The position numbers were made by a program, and so were the translations under genes. Positions 40,976-56,951 of a DNA stretch of 64,000 bases are shown piece after piece; the first letter of the stretch is position 1; each line of letters opens with the position of its first letter. The DNA comes from Actinophytocola xinjiangensis (lineage in GTDB: Bacteria > Actinomycetota > Actinomycetes > Mycobacteriales > Pseudonocardiaceae), in assembly GCF_001921215.1 (NCBI RefSeq), contig NZ_MSIF01000019.1:62001-126000 (forward strand), read 5' to 3'. The notes under the pieces were generated by a model that was given only the letters and a program-made list of their open reading frames with translations, was not told where the DNA came from and ran no database searches.

Positions 40976-42160
40976 TCAGACCAGCTCGCGGTCCAGGACC
41001 ATGGGCGAGAGGGCGTGGCGCACCACCATGGCGGCCGCGCCGAGGACACCGGCGTTCGCGCCGGCCTGCGACGGCACGATGCGCAGGTGCTCGGTCGCCA
41101 GCGGCAGCGAGCGGCGGTAGATCGACTCGCGGACCCCGGCCAGCAGCATCTCGCCGGCCTGGGCGAGCTGGCCGCCGACCACGATCAGCGACGGGTTGAA
41201 CAGGCTCACCACCGCCGCGAGCACCTCGCCGATGTCCCGGCCGGCCTGGCGGACCTGCTGGCCGGCGGTGAGGTTGCCGCCGTGCACCAGCGACACGACG
41301 TCGGTGCTGGTCTGCGCCTCGATGCCGGCCGTGCGCAGCTTCGCGGCCACCGCCGGACCGCTGGCGACCGCCTCCAGGCAGCCGCTGTTGCCGCAGCGGC
41401 AGGGCACCTCGCCCGCGCTGGGCGCCAGGATGTGGCCGAGGTCGCCGGCCGCCCCGACGTCTCCCCGGTGCAGCTGGCCGTTGCTGATCAGGCCGGAGCC
41501 GATGCCGGTCGCGACCTTCACGAAGATCATGTTCTGCTCGGTCGGGAAGCACCGCGCGTGCTCGCCGAGCGCCATCAGGTTCACCTCGTTGTCGACCAGC
41601 ACCGACACCGGGAACTCGGTGTGCACCCTGGCCGGCACGTCGTAGCCGTTCCAGCCGGGCATGATCGGCGGGTGGGTCGGCTTGCCGGTCGAGTGCTCGA
41701 CCGGGCCGGGCAGGCCGATGCCGGCGCCGGCGACCGGCGCGGTGATGGCGTGCTCGGAGCGCATCCGCCGCCAGGTCTCGGTGAGCAGCCCGAGGACCGC
41801 GTCGGGGCCGTCGGCGATGTCCAGCGTCAGCGTCTCGCTGGCCAGCGGCTCGCCGGTCAGGTCGGTGACCGCGACGGTGGCGTGGGTCGCGCCGACCTCG
41901 GCGGCCAGGGCCACCCGAGCACTGGCGTTGAACACGAACCGGCTGGCCGGGCGGCCGCCGGTGGTGGCGTCGTTGCCCCAGTCGGAGACCAGGCCGGCGT
42001 CCATCAGCGCGTCCAGCCGGGAGCGGACCGTCGAGCGGGCCAGCCCGGTCTCGGTCGCCAGCTCGGCGCGGGTGCGGGCCTGTCCGTCGCGCAGCAGGCG
42101 CAGCAGCTCGCCTGGTGACGTCGACCCAGGCGATGTCGTGGTTGCGTGCCCGTCCTGCAT
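40976..42160 (-). CDS. ROK-family transcriptional regulator
   Basis: 394 residues, ATG 42160. N-terminal winged helix ~15-75 (TRAELATETGLARSTVRSRL), then the ROK kinase-like fold: GAGIGLPGPVEHSTG, VDNEVNLMALGEH, the HILAPSAGEVPCRCGNSGCL zinc-binding motif (Cys-x-Cys-Gly-x-x-Gly-Cys-Leu) and a C-terminal SLFNPSLIVVGGQLA. Typical NagC/XylR-type sugar-responsive repressor. Divergent from, and very probably controlling, the Gfo/Idh/MocA-importer operon starting at 42293. Confidence 0.94.
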   Translation of the reverse strand: MQDGHATTTSPGSTSPGELLRLLRDGQARTRAELATETGLARSTVRSRLDALMDAGLVSDWGNDATTGGRPASRFVFNASARVALAAEVGATHATVAVTDLTGEPLASETLTLDIADGPDAVLGLLTETWRRMRSEHAITAPVAGAGIGLPGPVEHSTGKPTHPPIMPGWNGYDVPARVHTEFPVSVLVDNEVNLMALGEHARCFPTEQNMIFVKVATGIGSGLISNGQLHRGDVGAAGDLGHILAPSAGEVPCRCGNSGCLEAVASGPAVAAKLRTAGIEAQTSTDVVSLVHGGNLTAGQQVRQAGRDIGEVLAAVVSLFNPSLIVVGGQLAQAGEMLLAGVRESIYRRSLPLATEHLRIVPSQAGANAGVLGAAAMVVRHALSPMVLDRELV

Positions 42161-42233: not shown

Positions 42234-42256
42234 TCAGACCATCAGGAGGCTTTTGA

Positions 42257-42286
42257 TTGACACGCGCCATAAGTACCGATTACGTT
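42257..42286 (+). promoter_or_regulatory. Promoter TTGACA-N18-TACGTT, leaderless
   Basis: Consensus -35 TTGACA (42257-42262), 18-base spacer, -10 TACGTT (42281-42286), then 6 bases to ATG 42293. The layout places transcription start at the ATG and decides this start over the upstream in-frame TTG at 42257, which is part of the -35 box itself. Confidence 0.65.
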
Positions 42287-42292
42287 CGCCGT

Positions 42293-43417
42293 ATGTCTGT
42301 GACCCACCTAACAGCCTCCGGACGAGGGTTGGGGGCGGAGTCCCGGACGCTGCGAGTCGGCGTCGTGGGAGCCGGGTTCATGGGGCGGGTCCACGCCGAA
42401 GCCGCCCGCCGCGCCGGGGCCACCGTCGTCGCGGCCACCGCCTCCAGCCCCGTGCGGGCCGACGCGGCCGCCGCCGCCATCGGCGCCCAACGCGGCTACC
42501 CCGGCGTCGGTGAACTGCTCGACGCCGCCGAGATCGACGTGCTGCACATCTGCACCCCCAACGTCACCCACGCCCCGCTCGCCGCCGCCGCGCTCGCCGC
42601 CGGCGCCCACGTCGTCTGCGAGAAACCGCTGGCCACCGGCGTGACCGAGGCCGGGGGGCTGGTCAGCGCGGCCACCGACCGGATCGCCACCGTGCCCTTC
42701 GTCTACCGCTTCCACCCGATGGTCCGCGAACTGCGCGCCCGGCTCACCGCCGGCGAGGCCGGCACCCTCACCACCGTCACCGGCGGCTACCTGCAGGACT
42801 GGCTGTCCCGGGCCACCGACGAGAACTGGCGCATCGACTCCGGCCAGGGCGGCGCGTCCCGCGCCTTCGGCGACATCGGCTCCCACTGGTCGGACCTGTT
42901 CGAGTTCGTCACCGGCGACCGGATCGCCCGCCTCAGCGCCCGCACCGCCGTGGTCCACGGCCGCGACGGCCAGCGCACGCCCCCCACCGAGGACCTCGCC
43001 GCCGTCCTGTTCGCCACGACCCGGGGCCTGCTCGGCACCCTGGTCGTCTCCCAGGTCGCCGCCGGCCGCAAGAATCGGTTGCATCTGGAACTGTCCGGGA
43101 CCGACGCCAGCTTCGCCTTCGACCAGGAGGACCCCGAACGGCTGTGGGTCGGCCGGCGCGAGGGCGGCCAGGTCCTGCTGCGCGACCCGGACACCCTGCA
43201 CCCCTCGGCCGCCCGCTACGTCCGGGTCCCCGCCGGCCACGCCCAGGGCTACCAGGACTGCTTCGACGCGTTCGTCGCCGACACCTACGCCGCCGTCCGC
43301 GGCGAGTCCCCCGACGGGTTGCCGACCTTCGCCGACGGCCTGCGCGCGGTCCGGGTCACCGACGCGGTCCTCACCTCGTCGGCCGCCGACGGGGCCTGGG
43401 TGGAGGTCGCGCCATGA
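42293..43417 (+). CDS. Gfo/Idh/MocA-family sugar oxidoreductase
   Basis: 374 residues from ATG 42293. Rossmann motif VGVVGAGFMGRVH (22-34), HICTPNVTHAP, the family signature CEKPLATG near 115-122, and the catalytic-region pattern GDIGSHWSDLFEF. These NAD(P)-dependent enzymes oxidise or reduce hydroxyls of sugars, inositols and, in ThuB-type members, make 3-keto-disaccharides. First gene of the operon; overlaps the ABC ATPase start by ATGA. With a ThuA-domain protein and a TIM-barrel epimerase in the same cluster, a role in 3-keto sugar conversion is the leading hypothesis. Confidence 0.92.
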   Translation: MSVTHLTASGRGLGAESRTLRVGVVGAGFMGRVHAEAARRAGATVVAATASSPVRADAAAAAIGAQRGYPGVGELLDAAEIDVLHICTPNVTHAPLAAAALAAGAHVVCEKPLATGVTEAGGLVSAATDRIATVPFVYRFHPMVRELRARLTAGEAGTLTTVTGGYLQDWLSRATDENWRIDSGQGGASRAFGDIGSHWSDLFEFVTGDRIARLSARTAVVHGRDGQRTPPTEDLAAVLFATTRGLLGTLVVSQVAAGRKNRLHLELSGTDASFAFDQEDPERLWVGRREGGQVLLRDPDTLHPSAARYVRVPAGHAQGYQDCFDAFVADTYAAVRGESPDGLPTFADGLRAVRVTDAVLTSSAADGAWVEVAP

Positions 43418-44907
43418 CCGGCACCAGCGTGCGGCTGACCGGGATCAGCAAGTCGTTCCTCGGTGTGCCGGTGCTGCGCGGAGTCGACCTGGAACTGGCG
43501 CCCGGCGAGGTGCACGCGCTCATGGGCGAGAACGGCGCCGGCAAGTCCACACTGCTCAAGGTGCTCGCCGGGGTCCACCGCCCGGACGAGGGCCGGGTGG
43601 AGATCGACGGCGTCGCGCACACCTTCGCCGGCCCGGCCGACGCGCAGCGCGCCGGCATCGGGATCATCCACCAGGAGTTCACCCTGCTGCCGCACCGCAG
43701 CGTCGCCGAGAACGTCCACCTGGGCCGCGAACCGGTGCGCCGCCTGCGGGTCGACCGCCGCCGGATGGTCCGCGAGACCGGCGAACTGCTGGAATGGCTC
43801 GGCGAGGACGGCATCGACCCCACCGCCGCCGTGTCCACGCTCCCGGTCGCCCAGCGGCAGGTCGTGGAGATCGTCAAGGCGCTGGCCACCGACGCCACCG
43901 TGCTCGCCATGGACGAACCGACCGCCGCGCTGGCCGACCACGAGGTCGAGCTGCTCTACGACCTGGTCCGCCGGCTGCGCGAACGCGGCATCGCGATCCT
44001 CTACGTGTCCCACCGGATGCGTGAGGTGTTCGACCTCAGCGACCGGATCACCGTCCTCAAGGACGGCGCGTTCGTCGTCTGCGCGCCCACCGCCGAGCTG
44101 ACCTCGGAGGACCTGGTGCGCCACATGGTCGGCCGCGACCTCAGCGCGCTGTACCCCGACCGCGCGCGACCCGAGGACCTCGGCGAGACCCGGCTGCGGA
44201 TCACCGGCGGCGGCAACGCCCGCGTCCGCGACCTCGACCTCCAGATCCGCGCCGGCGAGATCGTCGGACTGGCCGGGCTGCAGGGGTCCGGCCGCTCGGC
44301 CGTCGCGCGGGCGGTGTTCGGAGTGGAGCCGTTCACCACCGGCACGGTCGAGCTCGACGGCGTCGCGCGCCGGATCGCCGGCCCGCGCGGGGCGGTGCGC
44401 CACGGCATCGCGTTCGTCACCGAGGACCGCAAGGGCGAGGGGCTCGCGTTGCGCCAGTCGGTGCGGGACAACACGTTGCTGGTGCGCCGCTCCGCGCTGC
44501 GGGGCGCGCGGTCCCGGGTCGCCGCCGACCTCACCGCGCTGCTGGAGTCGGTCGAGGTCGTCGCGCGCGGCGAGCACCAGGAGGTCCGGTTCCTCTCCGG
44601 CGGCAACCAGCAGAAGGTCGTCCTGGCCAAGTGGCTGGCCGTCGACCCCAAGGTGCTGCTGGTCGACGAACCCACCCGGGGTATCGACGTCGGCGCCAAG
44701 CAGACCGTGCACCAGCTGCTGCGCGCGCTGGCCGGACGCGGTGTCGCGATCCTGATGATCTCCTCCGAACTGCCGGAGCTGATCGGGATGAGCGACCGGA
44801 TCCTGGTCATGCACGAGGGCCGCCCGGCGGGGGAGCTGCCGGCGGGTGCGAGTGAGGCCGCGGTGGTCGGGCTGGCCACCGGACACGGGATCGGCGAGGT
44901 CGCGTGA
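43414..44907 (+). CDS. CUT2-type sugar ABC importer ATPase (RbsA/MglA-like)
   Basis: 497 residues, two fused nucleotide-binding domains. Domain 1: GENGAGKSTLLKVL, VLAMDEPTAALADHE, SHRMREVF. Domain 2: degenerate Walker A GLQGSGRSAVA (normal for this family), signature LSGGNQQKVVLAKWL, VLLVDEPTRGIDVG. Energises monosaccharide uptake together with the two following permeases. Start overlaps the oxidoreductase stop. Confidence 0.94.
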   Translation: MTGTSVRLTGISKSFLGVPVLRGVDLELAPGEVHALMGENGAGKSTLLKVLAGVHRPDEGRVEIDGVAHTFAGPADAQRAGIGIIHQEFTLLPHRSVAENVHLGREPVRRLRVDRRRMVRETGELLEWLGEDGIDPTAAVSTLPVAQRQVVEIVKALATDATVLAMDEPTAALADHEVELLYDLVRRLRERGIAILYVSHRMREVFDLSDRITVLKDGAFVVCAPTAELTSEDLVRHMVGRDLSALYPDRARPEDLGETRLRITGGGNARVRDLDLQIRAGEIVGLAGLQGSGRSAVARAVFGVEPFTTGTVELDGVARRIAGPRGAVRHGIAFVTEDRKGEGLALRQSVRDNTLLVRRSALRGARSRVAADLTALLESVEVVARGEHQEVRFLSGGNQQKVVLAKWLAVDPKVLLVDEPTRGIDVGAKQTVHQLLRALAGRGVAILMISSELPELIGMSDRILVMHEGRPAGELPAGASEAAVVGLATGHGIGEVA

Positions 44908-45917
44908 GCTCGACGACCGAGAAACCGTTACCGGTCAGGTCCGTCCCGGCACAGACCCGCACCCGCCGGTTCACCCTGACGCCGACGGTGATCGTCTACG
45001 TGGCGCTGGTCGCCCTGCTGGTCGTGGGCAGCGTGCTGGTCGGCCTCCAGGGCGGCGTGCTGCTCGACCAGGCGGGACTGCTCAACATCTTCACCAGGGC
45101 CACCGCGCTCGGCCTGGTCGCCATCGGGCAGACGATCGTCATCCTCACCGGTTCGCTGGACCTGTCGGTGGCCTACCTGGTCGGGCTGACCTCACTGGTC
45201 GCCGCCGAGACGATGGCCGGACAGAGCGGCATGATCGTGCCCGGGGTGCTGCTCGCGCTCGCCGTCGCGGCGGTCGTCGGGCTGGTCAACGGCCTGGTGA
45301 TCACCGTGCTGAAGGCCAACGCGTTCATCGCCACCCTGGGCGTCGCGCTGATCCTGCGCGGCTACCTCGAACAGAACTACACCGGCCCGGCCGGTGACGT
45401 GCCGCGCACCTTCCAGCACCTGGGCTACGACCGGGTCGGCCCGGTGCCGGTCGCGGCGCTGCTGATGCTCGGGGTGGCCGGCGCCTGCTGGTGGCTGCTG
45501 TCCCGTTCCCGGCCCGGGTACCACATCTACGCCGTCGGCGGGGACGTCGAGGTCGCGCGGCTGTCCGGCGTGCACACCCGCCGCACCATCGTCACCGCGC
45601 ACGTGCTGTGCTCGGTGGCCGCCGGGATGGCCGGCATCTACCTGGCCAGCCGGCTCGGGTCCGGCGCGCCCTACGTCGGCACCGACGCCGGGTTCGACCT
45701 GGAGTCGATCGCCGCGGTCGTGCTGGGCGGGACGCTGCTGGCCGGCGGCCGGGGCGGCATCGTCGGCACCATCGGCGGCGTGTTCATCCTGGCCACCCTG
45801 GACACCGTGTTCGACGACCTGGCCGTCGACCCGTTCTTCAAGGACGTGGTGCGCGGCGTCGTGCTGATCACCGCGGTCGCCCTGTACGCACGCGGCATGG
45901 TGCGGAGGCCCCGATGA
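44904..45917 (+). CDS. CUT2-type sugar ABC importer permease (RbsC-like)
   Basis: 337 residues from GTG 44904 (GTGA overlap). About eight to ten transmembrane helices, with family motifs LGLVAIGQTIVILTGSLDLS, TLGVALILRG and GIYLASRLGSGAPYVGTDAG. One of two consecutive, non-identical permeases, so the channel is probably a heterodimer. Confidence 0.93.
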   Translation: MSSTTEKPLPVRSVPAQTRTRRFTLTPTVIVYVALVALLVVGSVLVGLQGGVLLDQAGLLNIFTRATALGLVAIGQTIVILTGSLDLSVAYLVGLTSLVAAETMAGQSGMIVPGVLLALAVAAVVGLVNGLVITVLKANAFIATLGVALILRGYLEQNYTGPAGDVPRTFQHLGYDRVGPVPVAALLMLGVAGACWWLLSRSRPGYHIYAVGGDVEVARLSGVHTRRTIVTAHVLCSVAAGMAGIYLASRLGSGAPYVGTDAGFDLESIAAVVLGGTLLAGGRGGIVGTIGGVFILATLDTVFDDLAVDPFFKDVVRGVVLITAVALYARGMVRRPR

Positions 45918-46945
45918 AGCGACCGGCCTGGCGACCGCGACTGGCCGAGGGCACCGCGCCGGTGCTGGCGGTGCTGGTGGCGCTGCTGATCGGGCTGGCG
46001 ATCGCCGGCCCGGCCTACGACTCGGTCGAGGGCTACCTGGCCCTGCTGAAACGGGCCGCGCCGCTGATGATCCTGGCGATCGGCCAGTACTTCGTGATCG
46101 TCTCCGGCGGGTTCGACCTGTCGGTCGGTGCCCTGGTGACCGCCGGCGTGGTGATCGCCGCCCGGCTCATCGGCGGCGACGAGTCGGCGACCGCCTGGGT
46201 GATCGTGCTCGTGCTGGCGTTCGGGCTGCTGGTCGGACTGGTCAACGGCCTGATCACGACGAAGCTGCTGGTGCCGTCGTTCATCGTGACGCTGGGCATG
46301 CTGCTGGTGCTCGACGGCGCGGTGTTCCTGTGGACCGACGGCGCCCCGCGCGGCGCGCTGTCCACCGCGTTCCGCCAGTTCGGCCGGGGCTCGGTCGACG
46401 TGCCGCTGCTGGGTGAGGTGCCGTACTCGGTGCTGATCCTGCTGGTGGTGCTGGTCGCGGCCGCGGTGTTCATGCGCGGCGGCACCGGCCGCGCGCTGGT
46501 CGCGGTCGGCGACAACGAGCAGGCCGTGCGGCTGTCCGGCGGGCAGGTCGACCGGTTGCGGCTGCTGGCGTTCGTGCTCTCCGGCGGCCTGGCGGCGCTC
46601 GCGGCGATCCTGCTCGGCGGGTTCGCCGGCGTCTCCGCCCAGGTCGGCCAGGGCCTGGAGTTCCGGGCGATCACCGCGGTCGTGCTCGGCGGGGTGCTGC
46701 TGGGCGGCGGCCGGGGCTCGGTGGTCGCCGCGACGGCCGGCGCGCTGTCGCTGGAGGCCCTGTTCACCCTGCTCAACCTGCTCGGTGTCGCGGGCGCGCT
46801 GGAGTCGGCCGTCCAGGGCGTGATCATCATCGCCGCGGTCGCCTACGCCTCGCTCGGCTCCGGGCTGCGACACCGGCTCCGTCCACGACGAGCCACCACA
46901 ACCAGCGAACCGCGGGACCCCAGACAGCCCGCATCCACCCCCTAG
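45914..46945 (+). CDS. CUT2-type sugar ABC importer permease (second subunit)
   Basis: 343 residues from ATG 45914 (ATGA overlap). Same fold as the previous gene: LMILAIGQYFVIVSGGFDLS, LGMLLVLDGAVFLW, FAGVSAQVGQGLEFRAI, GGVLLGGGRGSVVAA. Basic proline/arginine-rich C-terminal tail in the cytoplasm. Followed by a 17-base gap to the binding-protein gene. Confidence 0.93.
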   Translation: MKRPAWRPRLAEGTAPVLAVLVALLIGLAIAGPAYDSVEGYLALLKRAAPLMILAIGQYFVIVSGGFDLSVGALVTAGVVIAARLIGGDESATAWVIVLVLAFGLLVGLVNGLITTKLLVPSFIVTLGMLLVLDGAVFLWTDGAPRGALSTAFRQFGRGSVDVPLLGEVPYSVLILLVVLVAAAVFMRGGTGRALVAVGDNEQAVRLSGGQVDRLRLLAFVLSGGLAALAAILLGGFAGVSAQVGQGLEFRAITAVVLGGVLLGGGRGSVVAATAGALSLEALFTLLNLLGVAGALESAVQGVIIIAAVAYASLGSGLRHRLRPRRATTTSEPRDPRQPASTP

Positions 46946-46962
46946 AGGTTGGCGAGGAGATC

Positions 46963-48147
46963 ATGACGATGAACAGGACACTGCTCGCGGTGGCGGCGGT
47001 GGGTGCGCTCGTGCTCGCCGGGTGCTCCAGCGAACTGCCGGCCGAGGACGGGGGCGGGGGCGGCGGGTCGTCGGCGACCGACGCCGCGAAGTCGGAGTTC
47101 TTCGACCAGGCCGAGTTCGACCGCCAGTTGGCCTTCCGCGAGGCCAGCGCCGACGGCCCGGCGGACAAGCCGTGGGAGCAGATGATCGAACCGGCGCTGG
47201 TGGACACCGCGAAGTTCGCCAAGCCCGGCGGCGGCTACAACCTGTGCTTCTCCAACGCGGCGGTCGACAACCCGTGGCGTCAGGTCGGCTTCCGCACCAT
47301 GCAGCAGGAGGTCGAGCAGCACAAGGAGATCACCAAGTTCACCGTGCTCGACGCCGAGGCCAAGGACGACAAGCAGATCAGCGACATCCAGTCGCTGTCC
47401 GGCCAGAACTGCAGCGCGCTGATCATCTCGCCGAACACCACCGCGACGCTGACCCCGGCGGTCGAGGCGGCGTGCGCGACCGGGGTGCCGGTGATCGTGT
47501 TCGACCGGGGCGTGAACACCGACTGCCCGGTGACGTTCATCCACCCGATCGGCGGGTTCGCCTTCGGCGCCAACGGCGCGGAGTTCCTCACCGAGAAGGT
47601 CGACGCGGGCGGCAAGATCCTCGCCCTGCGCATCCTGCCCGGCGTCGACGTGCTGGAACAGCGCTGGGCGGCGGCCAACGAGATCTTCGCCGACAGCGAG
47701 TTGGACGTGGTGGGCGTCGAGTTCACCGACGGCGACGCCGCCAAGACCAAGAGCATCGTCTCCGACTACATCCAGCGCGAGGGCCAGATCGACGGCGTGT
47801 GGATGGACGCCGGCGCCACCTCGGTCGCCGCGATCGAGGCGTTCCAGGACGCCGGGGTCGACGTGCCGGCCTTCGTCGGCGAGGACCAGCAGGACTTTCT
47901 GCGCCTGTGGGTCGACGAGGGCCTGACCGCCGTCGCCCCGACCTACCCGACCTACCAGTGGCGCACCCCGGTCATCGCCGCGCTGAAGATCCTCAACGGC
48001 GAGCAGGTCCCGAGCGAGTGGGTCCTCCCGCAGCCGACCATCACCCAGGACGACGTGGAGACCTACGTCGCCGAGGACATGCCGCCGCTGCACTACGCCA
48101 TGTGCGGCTGCGAGAACATGCCCGGCTACCCAGGCCCCTGGAAGTGA
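46963..48147 (+). CDS. CUT2-type sugar-binding lipoprotein
   Basis: 394 residues, GAGGAG before ATG 46963; lipobox LAGC puts the lipidated Cys at about residue 22. A Gly-rich linker, then the periplasmic-binding-protein-like I fold: FSNAAVDNPWRQVGFRTMQQ, ISPNTTATLTPAVEAACATG, GVPVIVFDRGVN. The C-terminus (HYAMCGCENMPGYPGPWK) has two nearby Cys, unusual for the family. Captures the imported sugar. Its stop overlaps the epimerase start (GTGA). Confidence 0.92.
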   Translation: MTMNRTLLAVAAVGALVLAGCSSELPAEDGGGGGGSSATDAAKSEFFDQAEFDRQLAFREASADGPADKPWEQMIEPALVDTAKFAKPGGGYNLCFSNAAVDNPWRQVGFRTMQQEVEQHKEITKFTVLDAEAKDDKQISDIQSLSGQNCSALIISPNTTATLTPAVEAACATGVPVIVFDRGVNTDCPVTFIHPIGGFAFGANGAEFLTEKVDAGGKILALRILPGVDVLEQRWAAANEIFADSELDVVGVEFTDGDAAKTKSIVSDYIQREGQIDGVWMDAGATSVAAIEAFQDAGVDVPAFVGEDQQDFLRLWVDEGLTAVAPTYPTYQWRTPVIAALKILNGEQVPSEWVLPQPTITQDDVETYVAEDMPPLHYAMCGCENMPGYPGPWK

Positions 48148-48995
48148 GTCCCGTAGGGGTCAACACGTGGGTGTGGACCTCACCGCTGACCGACCGGATG
48201 TTGGTCGAGCTGGCCCGGAAGGTCGCCGGGTGGGGGTTCGACGTGCTCGAACTCCCCGTGGAGAACCCGGGGGACTGGACGCCGGCGCACGCGGCCATGG
48301 TGCTCGGTGACCTCGGGCTCGGGGCCACCGTGTGCCTGGTCATGCCGCCGGGTCGCGAACTGGTCGGCACCGACCGGTCCACGGTCACCGCGACCCAGGA
48401 CTACCTGCGCGGGGTCGTCGACGCGGCCGCCGCCGTCGGGTCCACGGTCATCGCCGGGCCGGCGTACGCCTCGGTCGGCCGGACCTGGCGGATGACGGTG
48501 GCCGAACGGGCCGCCGCCTACGCCGAACTGCGCGAGCACCTCGCGCCGGTCGTCGAGCACGCCGGCCAGGCCGGCGTCACCGTGGCCGTGGAACCGCTCA
48601 ACCGCTACGAAACCAGCCTGCTCAACACCGTCGCCCAGACCCTGGAGGCCATCGGCGACCTGCCGCACTGCGGGGTCGGGCTGGACCTGTACCACCAGAA
48701 CATCGAGGAGGCCGACCTCACCGGCGCGATCTCGTCCGCCGCCGGGCGGATCGCGCACGTCCAGGTCTGTGGCAACGACCGGGGCGCGCCGGGGGCCGAC
48801 CACCTCGACTGGCCGGGAATTCTCGGCGCGGTGGCCGGCGCTGGCTACGCCGGCCCCCTGTGCATCGAGTCGTTCACCGGGGACAACGCCACCATCGCGA
48901 CCGCCGCGTCGATCTGGCGGCCGCTGGCCCCCACCCAGGACGACCTCGCCCTCACCGGCCTGGCGCACCTGCGGGAGGTGATGCGCGCGCTCTGA
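48144..48995 (+). CDS. Sugar-phosphate-isomerase/epimerase-type TIM barrel
   Basis: 283 residues from GTG 48144. Xylose-isomerase-like TIM-barrel family (AP endonuclease 2 fold). Metal-site segments: VAVEPLNRYETSLLN (Glu), CGVGLDLYHQNIEE (Asp, His), AHVQVCGNDRG and LCIESF (Glu). The VEPLNRYE and DLYHxNIEE motifs are those of D-tagatose/D-psicose 3-epimerases. Such barrels also isomerise 3-keto sugars. Translationally coupled to the binding protein, so it acts on the imported sugar inside the cell. Confidence 0.9.
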   Translation: MSPVGVNTWVWTSPLTDRMLVELARKVAGWGFDVLELPVENPGDWTPAHAAMVLGDLGLGATVCLVMPPGRELVGTDRSTVTATQDYLRGVVDAAAAVGSTVIAGPAYASVGRTWRMTVAERAAAYAELREHLAPVVEHAGQAGVTVAVEPLNRYETSLLNTVAQTLEAIGDLPHCGVGLDLYHQNIEEADLTGAISSAAGRIAHVQVCGNDRGAPGADHLDWPGILGAVAGAGYAGPLCIESFTGDNATIATAASIWRPLAPTQDDLALTGLAHLREVMRAL

Positions 48996-49057
48996 CCCCT
49001 CGCCCTTCGACGGCGCCGGCACGCCGTAGTGGACATTCACGCGAAACGGAAGCAACG

Positions 49058-52000
49058 ATGCACAGACCCCTTTTGCGGACCGCCCTCGGAGTGCTGTCGG
49101 CGAGCGTGTTGCTGAGCGGGCTCACGCCGGCCGCCGCCGCCCAGGCCGACCCGGAGTTCCGGGCGCTGCTGTTCACCAAGGTCGCCCAAGGCGCCTACCG
49201 GCACGACTCCATCCCCGCCGCCGTCGAGATGGTCACCCAACTCGCCACCGAGAACAACTTCGAGGTCGTGCACAGCGAGGACTCGACGGTTTTCAACGAC
49301 GCCGACCTCGCCACCTTCGACGTGGTGGTGATGGTGCAGAACGGCGGCATGGTGTGGGACACCGACGCCCAGCGCCAGGCCGTACGCACCTACGTCAACA
49401 ACGGTGGCGGCATCGCCGCGGTGCACAACGCCACCGACATGAACATCGAGGCGGACTTCCCGTGGTGGGACGAGTTCGTCAACGGCGGCGCGCACATGAC
49501 CGCGCACTCCGCCGGCGGCCTGACCGCCACCACCCACCGCATCGACGACGTGCACCCCTCCACCAAGGATCTGCCGGACCGCTGGGACCGGCCCGAGGAG
49601 TGGTACAACTTCCACCCCACCATGCGCGGCGAGGTGCACTCGCTGCTGGAGGTCGACGAGGACACCTACGACCCCGGTGGCGAGGCGATGGGCACCGACC
49701 ACCCGATCTCCTGGTGCCGTGACGCCGAGGGCGGCCGGGTGTGGGCCACCGCCATGGGCCACGCGATCTCCTCCTACTCCGAGCCGCTGTTCCGCCAGCA
49801 CGTCCTGGGCGGTATCCAGACCGCGGCCGGGGCCGTGCCGGCCGACTGCTCGGCCACCATGGACGCCGGGTTCGAGAAGGTCACCCTCGACGACACCACC
49901 AAGGCGCCCACCGCGCTGGACATCACGCCCGACGGGCGGGTGTTCTACACCGAGATCCTCGGCCAGATCCGCCTGTGGGACCCGGAGACCGGCGCCGTGA
50001 CCACCGCGCTGGACCTGCCGGTGTACGCCGGCGGCGAGGACGGCCTGACCTCGCTGGTGGTCGCGCCCGACTTCGCCGACACCGGACACCTGTACGTCTA
50101 CTACTCGCCACCGGGCGACGAGGAGATCAACCGGGTCTCGCGGTTCACCGTCACCGGCGACACCGTCGACCGGGCCAGCGAGGTCGTGCTGCTCGACATC
50201 CCGGCGTCGCGGCGCGAGGAGCCGGGGCACACCGGCGGCTACCTGGAGTTCGGTCCGGGCGGCAACCTCTACATCGGCGTCGGCGACGACACCAACCCGT
50301 TCCAGTCCAGCGGGTATGCGCCGATCGACGAGCGCGACGGCCGTGACCTGTTCGACGCGCAGAAGACCTCGGCGAACACCAACGACCTGCGCGGCAAGAT
50401 CCTGCGCGTGCACCCCGAGGCGGACGGCACGTACACGATCCCCGAGGGGAACATGTTCGCGCCCGGCACCGACAAGACGTTGCCGGAGATCTACGCCATG
50501 GGCTTCCGCAACCCGTTCCGGTTCTCGGTGGCCTCCGACGGCACGCTCCACATGGCCGACTACGGCCCGGACGCGGGCGGCGACAACGCCAACCGTGGCC
50601 CGGCCGGGCTGGTCGAGTGGAACGTGATCACCGAGCCGGGCAACTACGGCTGGCCGTACTGCGTCGGCAACGGGATCCCGTTCAACGACTTCGACTTCGC
50701 CACCAACACCTCCGGCGCCAAGTTCGACTGCGCCAACCCGGTCAACGACTCGCCGAACAACACCGGCCTCACCGAACTGCCGTCGGCCAAGCCGGCGACC
50801 GTCTGGTACGGCAACGGCGCCAACGGCAACGAGTTCCCGGAGATGGGTGACGGCGGCGAGGCCCCGATGGCCGGCCCGCGCTACGAGTACGACCCGGAGC
50901 TCGACTCCGACACCAAGTTCCCCGAGTTCTACGACGGCAAGCCACTGTTCTACGAATGGGCCCGCAACCGGATGTTCCTGTTCAACCAGGACTCCGACGG
51001 CGGCCTGCTGACCATCGACCCGTGGTACGTGTCCAACACGCCACTCGCTCCGATGGACATGAAGTTCGGCCCCGACGGCGCGCTGTACATGGTGGAGTGG
51101 GGCGGCGGCTACGGCCGCGACAACCCCGACTCCGGCGTCTACCGCATCGACTACACCCGGGGCGACCGCCGGCCGGTCGCGCACGGCACGGCCAGCCCGT
51201 CCAGCGGCCAGGCGCCGCTGGAGGTCACCTTCACCGGCGACGAGTCGAGCGACCCGGAGGGCGAGCAGGTCAGCTACGCGTGGAACTTCGGCGACGGCGA
51301 CACCTCGACCGAGGCGAACCCGAGCCACGTGTTCACCGAGAACGGCGTGTACAACGTCCAGCTCACGGTGTCCGACCCGGGCGGCAAGACCGGGATCTCC
51401 AACATGACCGTGACCGTCGGCAACACCGCACCGACCGTCGACCTGGCCGCGCCCGTCCACGGCGGCTTCTTCGACTTCGGTGACACGGTGGTGTTCGACT
51501 CCACGATCACCGACCCCGAGGAGCAGACCGACTGCGACTCGGCCGTGCTGCGGGTCTCGCTCGGCCACGACGCGCACGACCACCTGATCGACACGATCAA
51601 CGCGTGCGCCGGCGAGTTCACCACCCAGCACGACGAGGGCCACGCCGACGCGAACGTGTTCTACACCGCCGAGTCCAGCTACACCGACGGCGGCGCGAAC
51701 GGCCAGCCGGCGCTCACCGGCCGGGACCTGGCGGTGCTCCAACCCAAGCACAAGCAGGCCGAGTACCACAGCTCCTCGTCGGGCACGGCCGTGCAGGCCG
51801 ACACCGCCGCCGAGGCCGGCAAACACGTCGGGGAGATCTCCGACGGGGACTGGATCGCCTTCACCCCGGTGAACCTGCACCAGATCGACGGCATCGCGGC
51901 CAGGGTCAACGGCGCCAGCGCCGGCGGCTCGATCGAACTGCGGGCCGGTGCCCCCGACGGCGCGCTGGTGGCGACCATCCCGGTCCCGGCCAGCGGTGGG

Positions 52001-53833
52001 TACGTCACCGTGCCTCCGGCCGAGGTGACCGACCCCGGCGGCACGATCAACCTGCACGCGGTGTTCCGCACCACCGCCGACAACCAGTTCACCGTCGACT
52101 CGTTCGACTTCGTCGGCAAGGGCGTGTCCAGCAACGCAGCGCCCTACGTCGCGGTGAACGCCACCCCGGCCAGCGGCCCCGCGCCGCTGGAGGTCGAGCT
52201 GACCACGACCGTGACCGACCCCGAGGGTGACGAACCGTTCACCTACGCGTGGGACCTCGGTGACGGCACGACCTCCACCGAGGCCAACCCGACCCACACC
52301 TACACCGAGACCGGCACCTACACCGCCGAGGTGACCGTCACCGACGCGGCCGGCCGCGCCAAGTCGGTGGCCACCCAGGTGGTGGTGAGCACGCCGCCGA
52401 TGCCGCCGATCGAGTGCGCCGACCCCGACGCCGCGGTCGATCCCAGCGACGAGTTCGACGGCGACCGGCTCGACGGCTGCCGGTGGGACTCGGTGCTGCG
52501 GCCCGACCTGTCGGCCATGCGGATGGCCGACGGGGTGCTCGGCGTGGACACGCTGCCCGGCGACATCAACGGCGGCGCCAACGACGACCCGAACAACTTC
52601 GTCCTGCGGGCCGCCCCCGGCGGTGACTGGACCCTGGAGACCCGGCTGCGGGCACCGCTGCACGAGCGGTACCAACTCGCCGGGCTCATGGTCCACGGCA
52701 GCGACGACGACTACGTCAAGTTCGACGTCGTCGCGTTCAACGGCGCCGGCTCGACCGTCGACCTGCGGGCGGAGCTGGTGTCGGAGAACGACGGCCAGTT
52801 CGGCAACGGCGGCAACCGGTCGGTCACCCTGGGCTCGGGCCCGGAGAGCGGCTGGTGGCACCTGAAGCTGACCAAGTCCGGCAACTCCTACAGCGGCTGG
52901 GTCAGCGACGGCGGCACCGAGTGGACCTCGCTGGGTGACGCGGTGACCAACGAGATCCCGAACCCGAAGTTCGGCCTGATGGCCATCGGACCACAGCAGA
53001 CCCAGGGCCCGGTGACCGTCGACTTCGACTGGTTCCGGGTGTCCGGTGTGGACACCGCGGCACCGGAGGTGGCGGCCGTCGTCTCGCCGGAGCCCGCCGA
53101 GTCCGGCTGGCACCTCGCCGCGCCGACGGTGACCCTCACCGCCGACGACGGCGCCGGTTCGGGCGTGGCCACCACCGAGTACCGGATCGACGGCGGTGAC
53201 TGGACCGCCTACACCGAGCCGTTCACCGTCCCCGGCGACGGCACGCACACCGTCGAGTACCGGGGTGCCGACCGCGCCGGCAACAGCTCACCGGTCGGCC
53301 AGGTCGAGGTGAAGGTCGACGCCACCGCACCCGCGCTGGCGGTCACCGGCCTCACCGACGGCGTGACCTACGGGCACAGCGAGGACCGGATCGTCGACTG
53401 GACCGCCACCGACGACGGGTCCGGTGTCGGTGAGGTCGCCGCGACGCTCGACGGCCAACCGGTCGCCAAGGGCGCCACCGTGGCGCTGCCAGGGCTGGCG
53501 TTGGGCGAGCACACGCTGGTCGTGCGCGCGCCGGACACCGCGGGGCACGTGACCGAACGGACGATCACCTTCACCGTGGGCACGTCGGTCACCGACCTGC
53601 AGGCCATGCTCGACCGGCTGCAGGCCGACAACCAGGTCGGCTGGCTGGCCGGCCTGGTGCTGGAGGCCCAGCTCGACCAGGCGCGCCGCGAGGTCGTGGC
53701 CGGGCGCACCGACCGCGCGATCCAGTTGCTGAACGCGTTCAGCGGTTCGGTCGCACTGCTGGTACCCGACGCGGAGGCCAAGGCGCTTCTGCGTGCCGAC
53801 GCGGCGGCCGTGGCGCGGGCACTGCGCGGCTAG
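49058..53833 (+). CDS. Secreted ThuA / sorbosone-dehydrogenase-like multidomain protein with PKD, CBM and FIMAH
   Basis: 1591 residues, ATG 49058, 62 bases after the epimerase gene. Signal ~1-29. ThuA-like domain ~34-256 (YVNNGGGIAAVHNATD, VWATAMGH). Sorbosone/glucose-dehydrogenase-like propeller ~272-700 (AMGFRNPFRFSVASDGTLHM, PGNYGWPYC, MDMKFGPDGALYMVEWGGGY). PKD ~705-788 (YAWNFGDGDTSTEANPSHVF), Ig-like region ~790-900, CBM6-like ~905-1022, second PKD ~1026-1111, a lectin-like DUF1349-type sandwich ~1131-1327, two Ig-like domains ~1340-1510, and a FIMAH-type C-terminal helical domain (~1512-1590, DLQAMLDRLQADNQVGWLAG). ThuA proteins act in 3-keto-trehalose/sucrose use in rhizobia. Probably a surface-acting glycan oxidation/processing machine. 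Confidence 0.88.
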   Translation: MHRPLLRTALGVLSASVLLSGLTPAAAAQADPEFRALLFTKVAQGAYRHDSIPAAVEMVTQLATENNFEVVHSEDSTVFNDADLATFDVVVMVQNGGMVWDTDAQRQAVRTYVNNGGGIAAVHNATDMNIEADFPWWDEFVNGGAHMTAHSAGGLTATTHRIDDVHPSTKDLPDRWDRPEEWYNFHPTMRGEVHSLLEVDEDTYDPGGEAMGTDHPISWCRDAEGGRVWATAMGHAISSYSEPLFRQHVLGGIQTAAGAVPADCSATMDAGFEKVTLDDTTKAPTALDITPDGRVFYTEILGQIRLWDPETGAVTTALDLPVYAGGEDGLTSLVVAPDFADTGHLYVYYSPPGDEEINRVSRFTVTGDTVDRASEVVLLDIPASRREEPGHTGGYLEFGPGGNLYIGVGDDTNPFQSSGYAPIDERDGRDLFDAQKTSANTNDLRGKILRVHPEADGTYTIPEGNMFAPGTDKTLPEIYAMGFRNPFRFSVASDGTLHMADYGPDAGGDNANRGPAGLVEWNVITEPGNYGWPYCVGNGIPFNDFDFATNTSGAKFDCANPVNDSPNNTGLTELPSAKPATVWYGNGANGNEFPEMGDGGEAPMAGPRYEYDPELDSDTKFPEFYDGKPLFYEWARNRMFLFNQDSDGGLLTIDPWYVSNTPLAPMDMKFGPDGALYMVEWGGGYGRDNPDSGVYRIDYTRGDRRPVAHGTASPSSGQAPLEVTFTGDESSDPEGEQVSYAWNFGDGDTSTEANPSHVFTENGVYNVQLTVSDPGGKTGISNMTVTVGNTAPTVDLAAPVHGGFFDFGDTVVFDSTITDPEEQTDCDSAVLRVSLGHDAHDHLIDTINACAGEFTTQHDEGHADANVFYTAESSYTDGGANGQPALTGRDLAVLQPKHKQAEYHSSSSGTAVQADTAAEAGKHVGEISDGDWIAFTPVNLHQIDGIAARVNGASAGGSIELRAGAPDGALVATIPVPASGGYVTVPPAEVTDPGGTINLHAVFRTTADNQFTVDSFDFVGKGVSSNAAPYVAVNATPASGPAPLEVELTTTVTDPEGDEPFTYAWDLGDGTTSTEANPTHTYTETGTYTAEVTVTDAAGRAKSVATQVVVSTPPMPPIECADPDAAVDPSDEFDGDRLDGCRWDSVLRPDLSAMRMADGVLGVDTLPGDINGGANDDPNNFVLRAAPGGDWTLETRLRAPLHERYQLAGLMVHGSDDDYVKFDVVAFNGAGSTVDLRAELVSENDGQFGNGGNRSVTLGSGPESGWWHLKLTKSGNSYSGWVSDGGTEWTSLGDAVTNEIPNPKFGLMAIGPQQTQGPVTVDFDWFRVSGVDTAAPEVAAVVSPEPAESGWHLAAPTVTLTADDGAGSGVATTEYRIDGGDWTAYTEPFTVPGDGTHTVEYRGADRAGNSSPVGQVEVKVDATAPALAVTGLTDGVTYGHSEDRIVDWTATDDGSGVGEVAATLDGQPVAKGATVALPGLALGEHTLVVRAPDTAGHVTERTITFTVGTSVTDLQAMLDRLQADNQVGWLAGLVLEAQLDQARREVVAGRTDRAIQLLNAFSGSVALLVPDAEAKALLRADAAAVARALRG

Positions 53834-53986: not shown

Positions 53987-55513
53987 CTACAGGTGGGTGA
54001 CGGTGTCGATGAGCCAGGTGCCGTTCTGGTTGACCAGCCCGTAGCGGTGGCGTTCCCGCATCCGGCGGCCGTCCTTGTACACGTAGTCCAGCGTCACCTC
54101 GGCGGTCGAGCCCTGGCCGCTGGCCGCCGAGGCCCGCACGGACGCGACGGTGCCCCAGTAGCCGGTGTAGCCGCTCCAGCCGCCGGCGGGTGAGGTCTGG
54201 AACTTGGGCGTGAGCCGGGTCCAGGCCTGTTCGAGGCCGCCGGGCATCAGCGCGTAGTAGGAGGTGATCGCCGAGGCCGGGTCGGCCGGCGGCGCGGGCG
54301 TCTCCTTGGCCGGGGGCGCGCCGGAGGTCGCCGGGGCCTGCGCCGAGGTCGGCGGCGTGGCTGGCTCCGACGTCTGGTTGTCCGAAGTGGACGGTTCGTC
54401 CTCGTCGGTTCCGGCCGGCGGGTCGTCGGAGGCCGCCGGCACGTTGGGGGCCTGACCGGAGGCGTTCTCGTCGGCCGGCGGATCATCGTTGCCGGTGGCG
54501 TTGAGGGTGATCAGCGTCGTGGTCACCGCCACCACCACGCACAACGCGGCCAGCGCCAGGATCGGGCGCCACCGCCGCCGCCCGGCCGGCGGCGGGTCGG
54601 CGGGAGCCGCCGGGGCCGTCGCCGGCTCCGGCGCGGCGACCGGGGCGGGTGCGGCCACGGGCACGGCGGCTGGTACGGCGACCGGGGGCACCTCCCGTCC
54701 CTCGGCGATCTCGAACAGCCGTGCGCTCACCTCGGCGACGTTGGGCCGCTGCGCGGGATCGGCGGCCAGCAGGCTGGTCAGCAGCCCGGTCAGCGGGCCG
54801 GCCTTCTTCGGCGGCGTGAACTCCCCGGACGCGATCCGGTGCAGCAACAGCATCGGGTTCGCGCTGCGCCCGGCCGGCGGCCGGCCCTCCACCGCCGTGT
54901 AGAGCGTGGCGCCCAACGAGTACGCGTCGGCGGCGAAGGTCACGTCCTGCCCCCGGGCCACCTCCGGCGCCAGGTAGGCCGGCGTGCCGACGAACGTGCC
55001 GGTGCTGGTCCCGGTGACGTCCTCGACCACCCGCGAGACCCCGAAGTCGGTCAACTTCACCGTGTCGTTCTCACCGACGAGGATGTTGGCTGGCTTGATG
55101 TCGCGGTGCACCACGCCCCGGGCGTGCGCGGCGGCCAGCGCGGCCGCGACCTGCGCACCGATCCGCGCGACCTCGGCCGGCGGCAGCGTTCCCCGCTCGG
55201 ACAGCACCTGGGACAGGCTCGTCGACGGCAGGTACTCCATCACGATGTAGGGGCGGTCGTCGTCCTCGATGACGTCGTAGACGGCGATCACCTGAGGATG
55301 GTGCAACTTCGCCGCGATCCGGCCCTCGCGCATCGTCCGGCGGCGGATCTCGCCCAGCCGCGACTCGTCCAACGCGGGCGGCAGCAACACCTCCTTGACC
55401 GCGACCGTCCGCCGAAGCCGTTCGTCATGCGCCTGCCACACCACGCCCATGCCACCGCCACCGAGTCGCTCGGTCAGCCGGTACCGACCCGCGACAACCT
55501 GCCCTGCATCCAT
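53987..55513 (-). CDS. Membrane Ser/Thr protein kinase (PknB-type) with extracellular NTF2-like tail
   Basis: 508 residues from ATG 55513 (GGAG upstream); GTG 55531 would add six. Kinase domain ~6-265: GGGGMGVVW glycine loop, VAVKEVLL Lys, VVHRDIKPANILV, LTDFGVSRV, GTPAYLAPEVA. Then an Ala/Pro-rich juxtamembrane stretch, a transmembrane helix ~325-347 (ILALAALCVVVAVTTTLITL), a Pro/Thr-rich linker, and a ~95-residue extracellular domain (SAITSYYALMPGGLEQAWTR ... GTWLIDTVTHL) of NTF2-like type rather than PASTA repeats. Likely an envelope sensor. Divergent from the TIR-STAND gene by 100 bases. Confidence 0.93.
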   Translation of the reverse strand: MDAGQVVAGRYRLTERLGGGGMGVVWQAHDERLRRTVAVKEVLLPPALDESRLGEIRRRTMREGRIAAKLHHPQVIAVYDVIEDDDRPYIVMEYLPSTSLSQVLSERGTLPPAEVARIGAQVAAALAAAHARGVVHRDIKPANILVGENDTVKLTDFGVSRVVEDVTGTSTGTFVGTPAYLAPEVARGQDVTFAADAYSLGATLYTAVEGRPPAGRSANPMLLLHRIASGEFTPPKKAGPLTGLLTSLLAADPAQRPNVAEVSARLFEIAEGREVPPVAVPAAVPVAAPAPVAAPEPATAPAAPADPPPAGRRRWRPILALAALCVVVAVTTTLITLNATGNDDPPADENASGQAPNVPAASDDPPAGTDEDEPSTSDNQTSEPATPPTSAQAPATSGAPPAKETPAPPADPASAITSYYALMPGGLEQAWTRLTPKFQTSPAGGWSGYTGYWGTVASVRASAASGQGSTAEVTLDYVYKDGRRMRERHRYGLVNQNGTWLIDTVTHL

Positions 55514-55613
55514 TCCCTGCTCCACTGCCACTCGCTCGGGTTTACACCACCGGACGCGAACCGAGGTGACCGGGTACGTGACCGCCGACCCGTCGGGATG
55601 ACATCATCCGGGG

Positions 55614-56951
55614 GTGACCGGCGCCGACGTGCTGATCGTGAACTCCCGCGTCGACGAGTCATGGTCGGGTTGGGTGGCGGACGTGGCGCGGAACACCGGG
55701 CACCCGGTGTCCCGGCTCCAGGACGGGCTCGCGAACTTCCTCGACGTCGCCACCATCATCGACCGCGAAACCCGGGCGGCGGAACAGGTAGTGGTGCTGC
55801 TCTCCCGAACCGGGCCGGATTTTCTCGCCGAGGCCGTCGCCGCAGCGCACCGCACCGGCACCCCGCTCCTGCCGGTGCACGTCGACGACCGGCCCGCGTC
55901 CTACCCGCGTCCGCTCGGCCACCTGCCGGCCGTGGACCTCACCGGTGTCCCGCTCGCCACGGCCGCCGACCGGCTCCGCGCGGCCCTGGACGGTACGCAC
56001 ACCGGGCTGGTGCGGCCCAACCACGTGCGGCGCCCGCCTCCCACGACGGATCCTTTCGTGGGCCGGGAAAGCGAGCTGGCGCGGCTGCACACGGCGTTGT
56101 TCGCCGACCGCGCGGCCGTGGTCACCGGTGAGGACGGGATCGGCAAGTCCGCGCTGGCCGCCCGGTTCGTCCGGACCCACCGCGGCCGCTGGGAACACGT
56201 GCTGTGGTCCACCCCCGCGCGCTTCGCCGACGACCAGCTGCGTGCCATCACCCGGCCCAAGGGCCCGGCGCTGCTGGTGGTCGACGGCGCCCCGGACTAT
56301 CCGACCGTCCGCGACCGTCTCTGGCCGGTACTGCTCGACCGCGACCTGGTGAACGTGCTGGTCACCTCACGTGCGCCGGACTGGCCCGACCCGTTCCGCA
56401 CCGTCGCCCTCGGCCCGCTGGACCCGGAGTCCGCGCGCCGGCTGGCCGAGCACACCGTGCCGGGCCACTCCGCCGAGTGGCCGGAACTGGGCGAGGTCCC
56501 CGGCGCGGTGATCTCGGTCGCCGGTGCGAACCCGGGGGAGTTGGCCGCCGGCCGCGAGATCGCCCGGCTCGCCAGGTCCGCCGACCACGGCTTCCACTAC
56601 CTCGACACCGACGACCCCGCCGCCGTCGCCACGTTCGAGCGCGCGTTCCGCGAGGTCGCCGGGGACATCGAGCTGCTCTCGGCCGGCCGGCGCCCGTGGC
56701 GGCGCTGGTGGCGTCGGCGCACCGGCGCCACCGCCGAGGTCCCGGTTGGAGCGGCCGCCCGGCTGCTGGCCGCTCTGCGACCGGTGCCCGGGGCGGTCCT
56801 GACCATCGGCTCGACGGCCTTCGTCACGACCCCGGAGCGGGCCGGCACACCGATCGTCAGCCGCACCCTGACCGCCGCCGAACTGCGGAACTTCGAGCAG
56901 GGCCAACGCCTGCGCGCCGACCCGATCACCGCCGCCCTGGGCGAGGACTGA
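55614..56951 (+). CDS. TIR-STAND protein without an obvious sensor domain
   Basis: 445 residues from GTG 55614. Residues ~3-128 follow the actinobacterial TIR pattern: DVLIVNSRVDESWSGWVADV, AAEQVVVLLSRTGPDFLAE, LLPVHVDDRPASYPRPLG, AVDLTGV. The catalytic Glu of NAD-cleaving TIRs cannot be placed with certainty. Then an NB-ARC-like ATPase: FVGRESELARL, Walker A VVTGEDGIGKSALA (~164-177), Walker B ALLVVDGAPD (~221-230), VLVTSR sensor. After ~340 there is only a short basic region and ~90 residues, with no TPR or WD40 repeats, which normally follow. Possible phage-defence or signalling protein; truncated sensor or partner-dependent. Confidence 0.75.
   Translation: MTGADVLIVNSRVDESWSGWVADVARNTGHPVSRLQDGLANFLDVATIIDRETRAAEQVVVLLSRTGPDFLAEAVAAAHRTGTPLLPVHVDDRPASYPRPLGHLPAVDLTGVPLATAADRLRAALDGTHTGLVRPNHVRRPPPTTDPFVGRESELARLHTALFADRAAVVTGEDGIGKSALAARFVRTHRGRWEHVLWSTPARFADDQLRAITRPKGPALLVVDGAPDYPTVRDRLWPVLLDRDLVNVLVTSRAPDWPDPFRTVALGPLDPESARRLAEHTVPGHSAEWPELGEVPGAVISVAGANPGELAAGREIARLARSADHGFHYLDTDDPAAVATFERAFREVAGDIELLSAGRRPWRRWWRRRTGATAEVPVGAAARLLAALRPVPGAVLTIGSTAFVTTPERAGTPIVSRTLTAAELRNFEQGQRLRADPITAALGED

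Follow-up and report, generated by a model that had tools for sequence, protein, structure and literature searches.

The breakdown of sugars through 3-keto intermediates has been described in several bacteria. Levoglucosan is degraded by the lgd pathway (LgdA, LgdB1, LgdB2/B3 and LgdC) of Bacillus smithii and Paenarthrobacter (PMC7676230, PMC10066097), with LgdA, LgdB1 and LgdC expressed on levoglucosan in P. nitroguajacolicus LG01 (PMC10066097) and LgdC reducing 3-keto-glucose to glucose (PMC7676230). Agrobacterium possesses an O-glycoside beta-eliminase operon (GlycDH, AtOGE, AtHYD and a Gfo/Idh/MocA oxidoreductase, hereafter Gfo; PMC10628242), the thuEFGKAB genes of rhizobia and Agrobacterium serve assimilation via 3-keto derivatives (Ampomah 2013; PMC6683767), and for Caulobacter a LacABC/DUF1080 lactose route has been proposed that oxidizes and cleaves its substrate outside the cytoplasm before a transporter, a reductase and two epimerases take over (PMC9007349). 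Here we compare these systems with a locus of Actinophytocola xinjiangensis that lies in a 64,000-nucleotide stretch of contig NZ_MSIF01000019.1 (assembly GCF_001921215.1, positions 62,001 to 126,000), referred to as the window and providing the coordinates used below. We put it at slightly better than an even chance that this locus serves as one module in a system that catabolizes 3-keto-glycosides, and homology gives good support to the 3-keto chemistry of the gene cassette to which it belongs.

Pfam and NCBIfam searches show a divergent arrangement, in which a ROK regulator gene faces seven genes on the opposite strand. All families named in an initial annotation of this DNA were recovered by Pfam and are placed as it had described, although the ROK gene lies just beyond the range it had assigned to the locus (42257-53833):

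40976..42160, minus strand: ROK-family regulator (Pfam ROK, 185 bits, with a winged-helix helix-turn-helix)
42250..42273, plus strand: predicted ROK operator/promoter element, CTTTTG-A-TTGAC-N6-CATAAG (motif scans of the genome and of relatives)
42293..43417, plus strand: Gfo/Idh/MocA oxidoreductase of the putative LgdC (3-keto-glucose reductase) group (Pfam GFO_IDH_MocA, tree, identities)
43414..44907, plus strand: CUT2 ABC transporter ATPase with two ABC domains (Pfam ABC_tran, NCBIfam)
44904..45917, plus strand: CUT2 permease 1 (Pfam BPD_transp_2)
45914..46945, plus strand: CUT2 permease 2 (Pfam BPD_transp_2)
46963..48147, plus strand: lipoprotein sugar-binding protein (Pfam Peripla_BP_4; lipobox LAGC by eye)
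48144..48995, plus strand: TIM1, a ketose-3-epimerase-like barrel (Pfam AP_endonuc_2; Gln207 replaces a metal-binding His)
49058..53833, plus strand: secreted ThuA-GSDH-PKD-CBM6-PKD-DUF1349-FIMAH protein of 1591 amino acids (Pfam ThuA, 192 bits; domain searches)

With the lgd pathway the window shares an LgdC-type Gfo, a CUT2 importer and PF01261 barrels, and a ROK gene is found among the neighbors of lgdA as it is here. A second barrel, TIM2, is common to two of seven lgd loci and to sister cassettes of the window. In contrast, the window has no LgdA over the reference cut-off and no barrel in common with the lgd loci, and its secreted ThuA-GSDH protein has a counterpart in none of those seven. 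The Agrobacterium operon offers a similar set of oxidation, elimination, hydration and reduction steps, and the TIM2 of sister cassettes resembles PDB 8ro4, a 2-hydroxy-3-keto-glucal hydratase. However, the hydratase lies within the operon in Agrobacterium and is absent from the window locus (the host copy is on contig C36, and 29 of 108 relatives carry one behind TIM1), a secreted ThuA protein is not among the parts described in the portions used (PMC10628242), and an eliminase role for TIM1 is putative. The thu genes share with the window the ThuA family and a transporter. Rhizobial thu operons encode a CUT1 importer and a separate cytoplasmic ThuA beside the ThuB dehydrogenase, whereas the window encodes a secreted ThuA joined to GSDH and CBM6 in one protein, a CUT2 importer and an LgdC-like Gfo. 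The Caulobacter route uses other protein families and is periplasmic and Gram-negative; its proposed order of extracytoplasmic oxidation and cleavage, import and reduction is already in print (PMC9007349), so an arrangement that the initial annotation did not recognize as a described pathway is not without precedent. Closest to the secreted protein is Xyl_S (M768_06655) of Cellulosimicrobium cellulans, which is likewise secreted and has the same ThuA-GSDH-PKD-CBM6-PKD order; only the protein was studied, and in the portions used its gene cluster, an importer and a 3-keto link are not discussed (PMC4562250). By the sequence-level tests made, the locus is not a levoglucosan operon, a thu operon or a plain epimerase locus, and we class it as a probable variant of the known 3-keto-glycoside pathways with a secreted partner of putative mechanism.

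The oxidoreductase and the TIM barrels

Using the NCBIfam LgdA profile at its reference cut-off (NF052479, 650 bits), 7 of 388 genomes of the class carry an LgdA, and all seven loci contain a second Gfo. A tree of 46 rows places the window Gfo among all seven of these LgdC-position genes and apart from all seven LgdA (support 100/100), and the window protein is 45-56% identical to the former vs 29-32% to the latter, including 54% to the corresponding gene of P. nitroguajacolicus LG01. The LgdA profile gives it 138.5 bits, and an inositol 2-dehydrogenase profile gives 89 against a cut-off of 355; the best LgdA-profile score in the whole genome (362-364 bits) is also below the cut-off. Homology and gene position thus suggest a Gfo of the LgdC type, a 3-keto-glucose reductase. 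None of the seven lgd loci contains a ThuA or GSDH match, and the TIM2 present in two of them shares 71-72% identity with its sister-cassette counterpart.

TIM1 scores 109.5 bits with a D-psicose 3-epimerase profile whose cut-off is 300. Its residues E150, D181 and E242 are invariant, and the His position of what we take, from D-tagatose 3-epimerase, to be a Glu/Asp/His/Glu metal site is Gln207 in 30 of 30 rows. As TIM1 is epimerase-like yet far under the profile cut-off and has exchanged the His ligand for an invariant Gln, it may act on a keto-sugar or keto-glycoside. A kinship of TIM1 with LgdB1 was considered and ruled out, as it shows no similarity to the barrels of the seven lgd loci. 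For TIM2, one sister-cassette sequence matches the hydratase structure 8ro4 with an E-value of 2.7e-32 and matches 2zds, a structure named as a putative DNA-binding protein and presumably from S. coelicolor, far better. Hydration of the 2-hydroxy-3-keto-glucal type is itself called preliminary for the Agrobacterium operon (PMC10628242).

The secreted protein and the site of keto formation

The initial annotation had described a secreted ThuA-containing protein, which stands, but to this must be added a GSDH propeller (Pfam, 109 bits) and a CBM6 module. The gene starts at 49058, with 48332 only opening the reading frame. ThuA is not a separate cytoplasmic protein here; a signal peptide (by eye) is followed by ThuA (residues 35-254), GSDH (from 282), PKD (705-787), CBM6 (900-1019), a second PKD stretch, DUF1349 (about 1175-1328), OmpL47/Ig-like repeats and FIMAH. 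An AlphaFold2 model of residues 26-690 (predicted local distance difference test score 92.5) matches glucose dehydrogenases dependent on pyrroloquinoline quinone (PQQ; top matches 2ism, 1qbi and 1cq1) as well as ThuA-like structures, so the propeller is predicted to have the fold of soluble quinoprotein glucose dehydrogenase. Across 36 rows, seven ThuA histidines are invariant, as are GSDH His366, Arg459 and Asn460 (numbered in the 26-690 piece). In a profile alignment that is weak at this point, the Arg-x-Arg column of soluble glucose dehydrogenase reads Pro-Met-Asp in the secreted protein, and the Arg pair that binds PQQ thus appears, tentatively, to be lost; that these His, Arg-Asn and Arg-x-Arg residues are catalytic or PQQ-binding is our assumption.

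The same N-terminal domain order is found in M768_06655, which was purified from C. cellulans F16 with beta-xylosidase and beta-glucosidase activity; its authors could not name the catalytic domain and proposed a new glycoside hydrolase family (PMC4562250). In a search of open-access texts on ThuA domains, this paper alone had both ThuA and GSDH. ThuA itself is common in these genomes, with 11 matches in the 9.54 Mb of the host and 7, 8, 7 and 13 in four further genomes that carry the cassette, some of them split matches of one gene. One host paralogue with its ThuA match split in two adjoins a multicopper oxidase (contig C20, locus L092), and split matches of this kind occur in four of five other genomes compared.

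Two further places in the host genome bear on where the keto group is made. A second locus on contig C28 (L085) encodes a ROK regulator, a CUT2 ATPase, one permease, a binding protein, an LgdA-like oxidoreductase (Gfo2, the only such gene in the genome and the source of its 362-364-bit score), a xylose isomerase (637 bits; cut-off 447) and another ThuA-GSDH. It is followed by genes for an inositol-1-phosphate synthase and a SCO3242-type prenyltransferase, the latter part cut by the contig end. The single TIM2 of the genome (76% identity) lies on C36. With an LgdA-like dehydrogenase and a hydratase relative encoded elsewhere, C3 oxidation could be intracellular in this host. As for PQQ, 10 of the 388 genomes sampled from the class have the biosynthetic PqqE at a score above its cut-off. 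The host has a copy (C1:71302-72324), and in the 80 of 106 known cassette genomes that were searched (host included) PqqE occurs in 8, namely 7 of 11 from the host's family, host included, and 1 of 69 others. The host can therefore probably make PQQ, while most bearers of the cassette seemingly cannot, and a general dependence of the cassette on PQQ is weakened by these counts, the host's own family being the exception.

Conservation, gene order and predicted regulation of the cassette

To survey relatives, the window's Peripla_BP_4 binding protein served as the marker in samples of the order and the class, with the host counted in both. Close relatives were found in 46 of 298 genomes (14 of 77 genera) of the order and 62 of 394 genomes (22 of 138 genera) of the class; all matches except the window's own, with the one shared by both samples counted once, gave 108 loci in 105 genomes (fetched as sets of 46 and 62 loci). 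Locus counts are based on tblastn, as our gene calls in high-GC loci are crude and at times follow antisense frames, and the total retains loci with neither ThuA-GSDH nor TIM2 beside TIM1 as well as the short contigs L064 (5.6 kb) and L124 (6.9 kb). The core of the cassette consists of ATPase, permeases, binding protein and TIM1, the last in place in 104 of 108 loci. ThuA-GSDH adjoins this core in 70 (49 downstream, 21 divergent upstream) and a ThuA or GSDH match lies at greater distance in 3 more, which gives 73 of 108 within the fetched stretch. ROK (64 loci) and an upstream Gfo (48 loci) are optional parts. The complete set of ROK, Gfo, core, TIM1 and downstream ThuA-GSDH is present in 27 loci from 8 genera, and the importer-TIM-ThuA linkage extends to 19 sampled genera besides that of the window, so the co-occurrence predicted by the initial annotation is not confined to close relatives.

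In the host, the 11 ThuA matches correspond to a chance of about 2% that a ThuA gene falls within 10 kb of a given locus, and 3 of 28 Peripla_BP_4 matches lie that close to a ThuA match vs about 0.6 expected: those of the window, of the C28 locus and of a LacI-type regulator on C34. Linked ThuA-GSDH genes fall into at least three separate groups in a 56-row tree that has several long branches, and host paralogues from other loci fall in two of these. Six loci (L065-L069 and L098) have binding proteins 80-84% identical to that of the window and a ThuA-GSDH of another subfamily, about 82% identical to genes from the loci of another family; the binding proteins of those latter loci share 55-61% identity with that of the window. 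The ThuA-GSDH gene has thus been exchanged while the association was kept, and the linkage is not mere inheritance; the locus is a genuine cassette across the class.

Behind TIM1, TIM2 is found in 29 of 108 loci, ten of them with an LgdA-like Gfo2 in between, and one further locus has Gfo2 at this place. No locus has both ThuA-GSDH and TIM2 beside TIM1, and within genus g109 TIM2 is present in five loci and ThuA-GSDH in another five. A general rule of mutual exclusion was rejected, as it holds beside TIM1 only (70 vs 29 loci): the TIM2 of L140 is in the next operon, Cellulosimicrobium and Oerskovia carry both, and the host has its TIM2 elsewhere, so that this is an alternation of linkage and not proof of replacement. 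In C. cellulans NBRC 15516 a single cluster contains ROK, importer, Gfo2, ThuA-GSDH, TIM2, Gfo, importer, TIM1, ThuA-GSDH and ThuA-GSDH, and what could be viewed of the corresponding region in C. marinum and Oerskovia flava looks similar. Its three long ThuA-GSDH genes encode 1663, 1882 and 1670 amino acids. The first of these has the domain order reported for M768_06655 (ThuA, GSDH, PKD, CBM6, PKD), and the 1670-residue protein has two PKD stretches, of which the domain table places one. A fourth ThuA frame on the cluster contig spans 321 amino acids, and those on other contigs 532 and 1336. M768_06655, known from strain F16, presumably belongs to this cluster, known from NBRC 15516.

Other genes also accompany relatives of the cassette. 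In 18 of 108 loci from two genera (among L039-L054 and L081-L084) TIM1 is followed by a GH141-like enzyme with a signal peptide by eye; the one tested matches 5mqp (BT_1002) with an E-value of 2e-42. A 76% identical GH141-like enzyme lies near a ThuA-GSDH paralogue at another host locus (L087). An importer cassette without a TIM1 match (L070, genome G215) runs into an ebo-type cluster with EboE (417 bits, above cut-off), an EboA-domain protein and a type I phosphodiesterase.

The seven window genes overlap or are separated by at most 62 bp, and there are no terminator-like sites between them on their strand; they are therefore likely to form one operon. The initial annotation had correctly named the family of its first gene, and the start it chose, TTG at 42257, falls within the TTGAC box of a conserved operator/promoter-like element at 42250-42273. 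The ATG at 42293 is probably the true start; the close relative L098 has ATGTCTGTGACC in common at this point, and L067-L069 have ATGTC at the end of the excised stretch. Beyond the operon, at 53987-56951, a Ser/Thr kinase gene on the minus strand adjoins an open reading frame resembling, by eye, a TIR-type plus NTPase protein.

The element at 42250-42273 is a likely operator, to which ROK would bind. With at most 2 mismatches allowed, CTTTTG-N-TTGAC-N6-CATAAG occurs just once in the 9.5 Mb genome, namely between ROK and the gene that opens the operon. Of 65 such ROK/first-gene gaps, 33 contain a looser form vs a mean of 0.0 in letter shuffles, the window itself being scored as a miss because its site extends past the end of the excised stretch. 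In 24 of 108 loci a form of the motif with at most 1 mismatch precedes the first gene, and the 2.08 Mb of the loci contain it nowhere else. It is not universal, as the loose pattern is found in no row of genera g12, g21, g94, g102, g114, g135, g141, g172, g186 and g192. A palindrome search with spacers of up to 8 found none; the repeats of the motif have spacers of 10-13. The C. cellulans cluster, whose ROK is 58% identical to that of the window, has three copies (at most 2 mismatches), of which two lie in the ROK gap and the third precedes the Gfo of the second operon, so that one regulator may control both modules.

A proposed route and its alternatives

The reading we lean towards, with the chance given at the outset, distributes a 3-keto route over several loci. 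The secreted ThuA-GSDH-CBM6 protein would bind and open beta-glycosides of the plant-polymer type outside the cell, as the activity reported for its homologue suggests, and the CUT2 importer, judged by its family, would bring in a small product. Inside, this would be oxidized at C3, cleaved by elimination, hydrated and reduced to a normal hexose. To this the window would contribute TIM1, for cleavage or epimerization, and the LgdC-type Gfo, for reduction of the 3-keto-hexose; the C28 locus would add its LgdA-like dehydrogenase, xylose isomerase and second ThuA-GSDH, and C36 the hydratase relative. The divergent ROK protein would repress the operon through 42250-42273. Support comes from the Gfo tree and identities, the TIM2 and Gfo2 of sister cassettes, the C. 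cellulans cluster, the C28 locus and TIM2 of the host, the conserved linkage and the enzymatic activity reported in PMC4562250.

Several observations weigh against this reading. The roles given to the window proteins derive from homology and family membership. The Gfo tree was built from Lgd and cassette sequences only, it came with warnings of long branches that meet and of unusual composition in some LgdA and LgdC rows, and the LgdC label of the second Gfo in the seven lgd loci comes from position and grouping, the enzymatically tested LgdC of B. smithii being outside the set. At an E-value of 1e-5 TIM1 has no match in those loci, and the best structural matches of TIM1 are D-allulose and L-ribulose 3-epimerases (28% identity, TM-score 0.9). 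The hydratase relative TIM2 is not at the window locus, and 49 of 108 relatives have no Gfo at the positions counted (of these, L061 and L064 are truncated, and in L055, L136 and L141 another Gfo lies at a greater distance downstream). Strain F16 is outside the genomes compared, and as the xylosidase described in PMC4562250 was obtained by partial proteinase digestion and had a low turnover (kcat 0.061 per s on the taxane), a contaminating ordinary glycosidase is possible.

The model of the initial annotation moves the keto chemistry outside: the secreted ThuA-GSDH would oxidize and cleave at C3, and the imported 3-keto sugar or glycal would be epimerized and reduced by TIM1 and Gfo. The connection to 3-keto sugars on which it was built has been strengthened by the LgdC-like Gfo and by the hydratase relative of sister cassettes. 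In 38 of 108 loci, moreover, TIM1 and an adjoining ThuA-GSDH occur in a fetched stretch that shows neither a Gfo nor a TIM2 match (the 41 without a Gfo in place less L055, L136 and L141), and the secreted protein could there be the required source of the keto group, although these counts cover the fetched stretches and the rest of those genomes was not searched for Gfo. The alternation of ThuA-GSDH and TIM2 behind TIM1, even within g109, also fits such a model, but C. cellulans has both, so ThuA-GSDH is no simple replacement of TIM2. Likewise, the quinoprotein fold with its invariant His and Arg-Asn and the PqqE of the host and its family speak for extracellular oxidation, while the near absence of PqqE outside that family, the apparent loss of the Arg pair and the intracellular LgdA-like candidate in the host speak against it. 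We consider extracellular keto formation on this model unlikely. A little less probable in our view is the fuller claim that the secreted protein represents a new extracellular glycoside-cleaving class, in which the propeller would oxidize C3 (with PQQ, self-made or scavenged, or another bound cofactor), the His-rich ThuA would break the bond, and CUT2 would import the 3-keto sugars for reduction inside. If true, Gram-positive bacteria across the Actinomycetes would possess an extracellular 3-keto glycan pathway.

A rare-sugar locus would explain the structural matches of TIM1 and its invariant three Glu, Asp, His and Arg shared with the epimerase active site, where we presume that they keep their roles. 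TIM1 would then be a ketose 3-epimerase, the Gfo a sugar or inositol dehydrogenase of the ordinary type, the importer one for free monosaccharides and ThuA part of a carbohydrate-binding surface protein. We find this rather improbable, since both enzymes score far under the corresponding cut-offs, the His ligand of TIM1 is Gln, the Gfo groups with LgdC-position genes and the hydratase relative of sister cassettes is hard to account for. Descent from a levoglucosan operon that has drifted would fit the LgdC-type Gfo, the CUT2 importer and the TIM2 shared with two lgd loci; we regard it as very improbable, as neither the window Gfo nor any other gene of the host reaches the LgdA cut-off, the seven lgd loci lack a TIM1-like barrel and any ThuA or GSDH match, and levoglucosan needs no secreted CBM6 protein.

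Taken as a module of a 3-keto-glycoside system, the locus points to a little-described route for eating plant-type glycosides. ThuA is numerous in these bacteria, and the cassette places ThuA-GSDH in a pathway with its own importer and regulator and with candidate intermediates. The breakdown of 3-keto-glycosides, so far associated with levoglucosan degraders, Agrobacterium and Bacteroides, would then also involve secreted multidomain enzymes in soil actinobacteria, and an orphan enzyme report (PMC4562250) would become a testable route.

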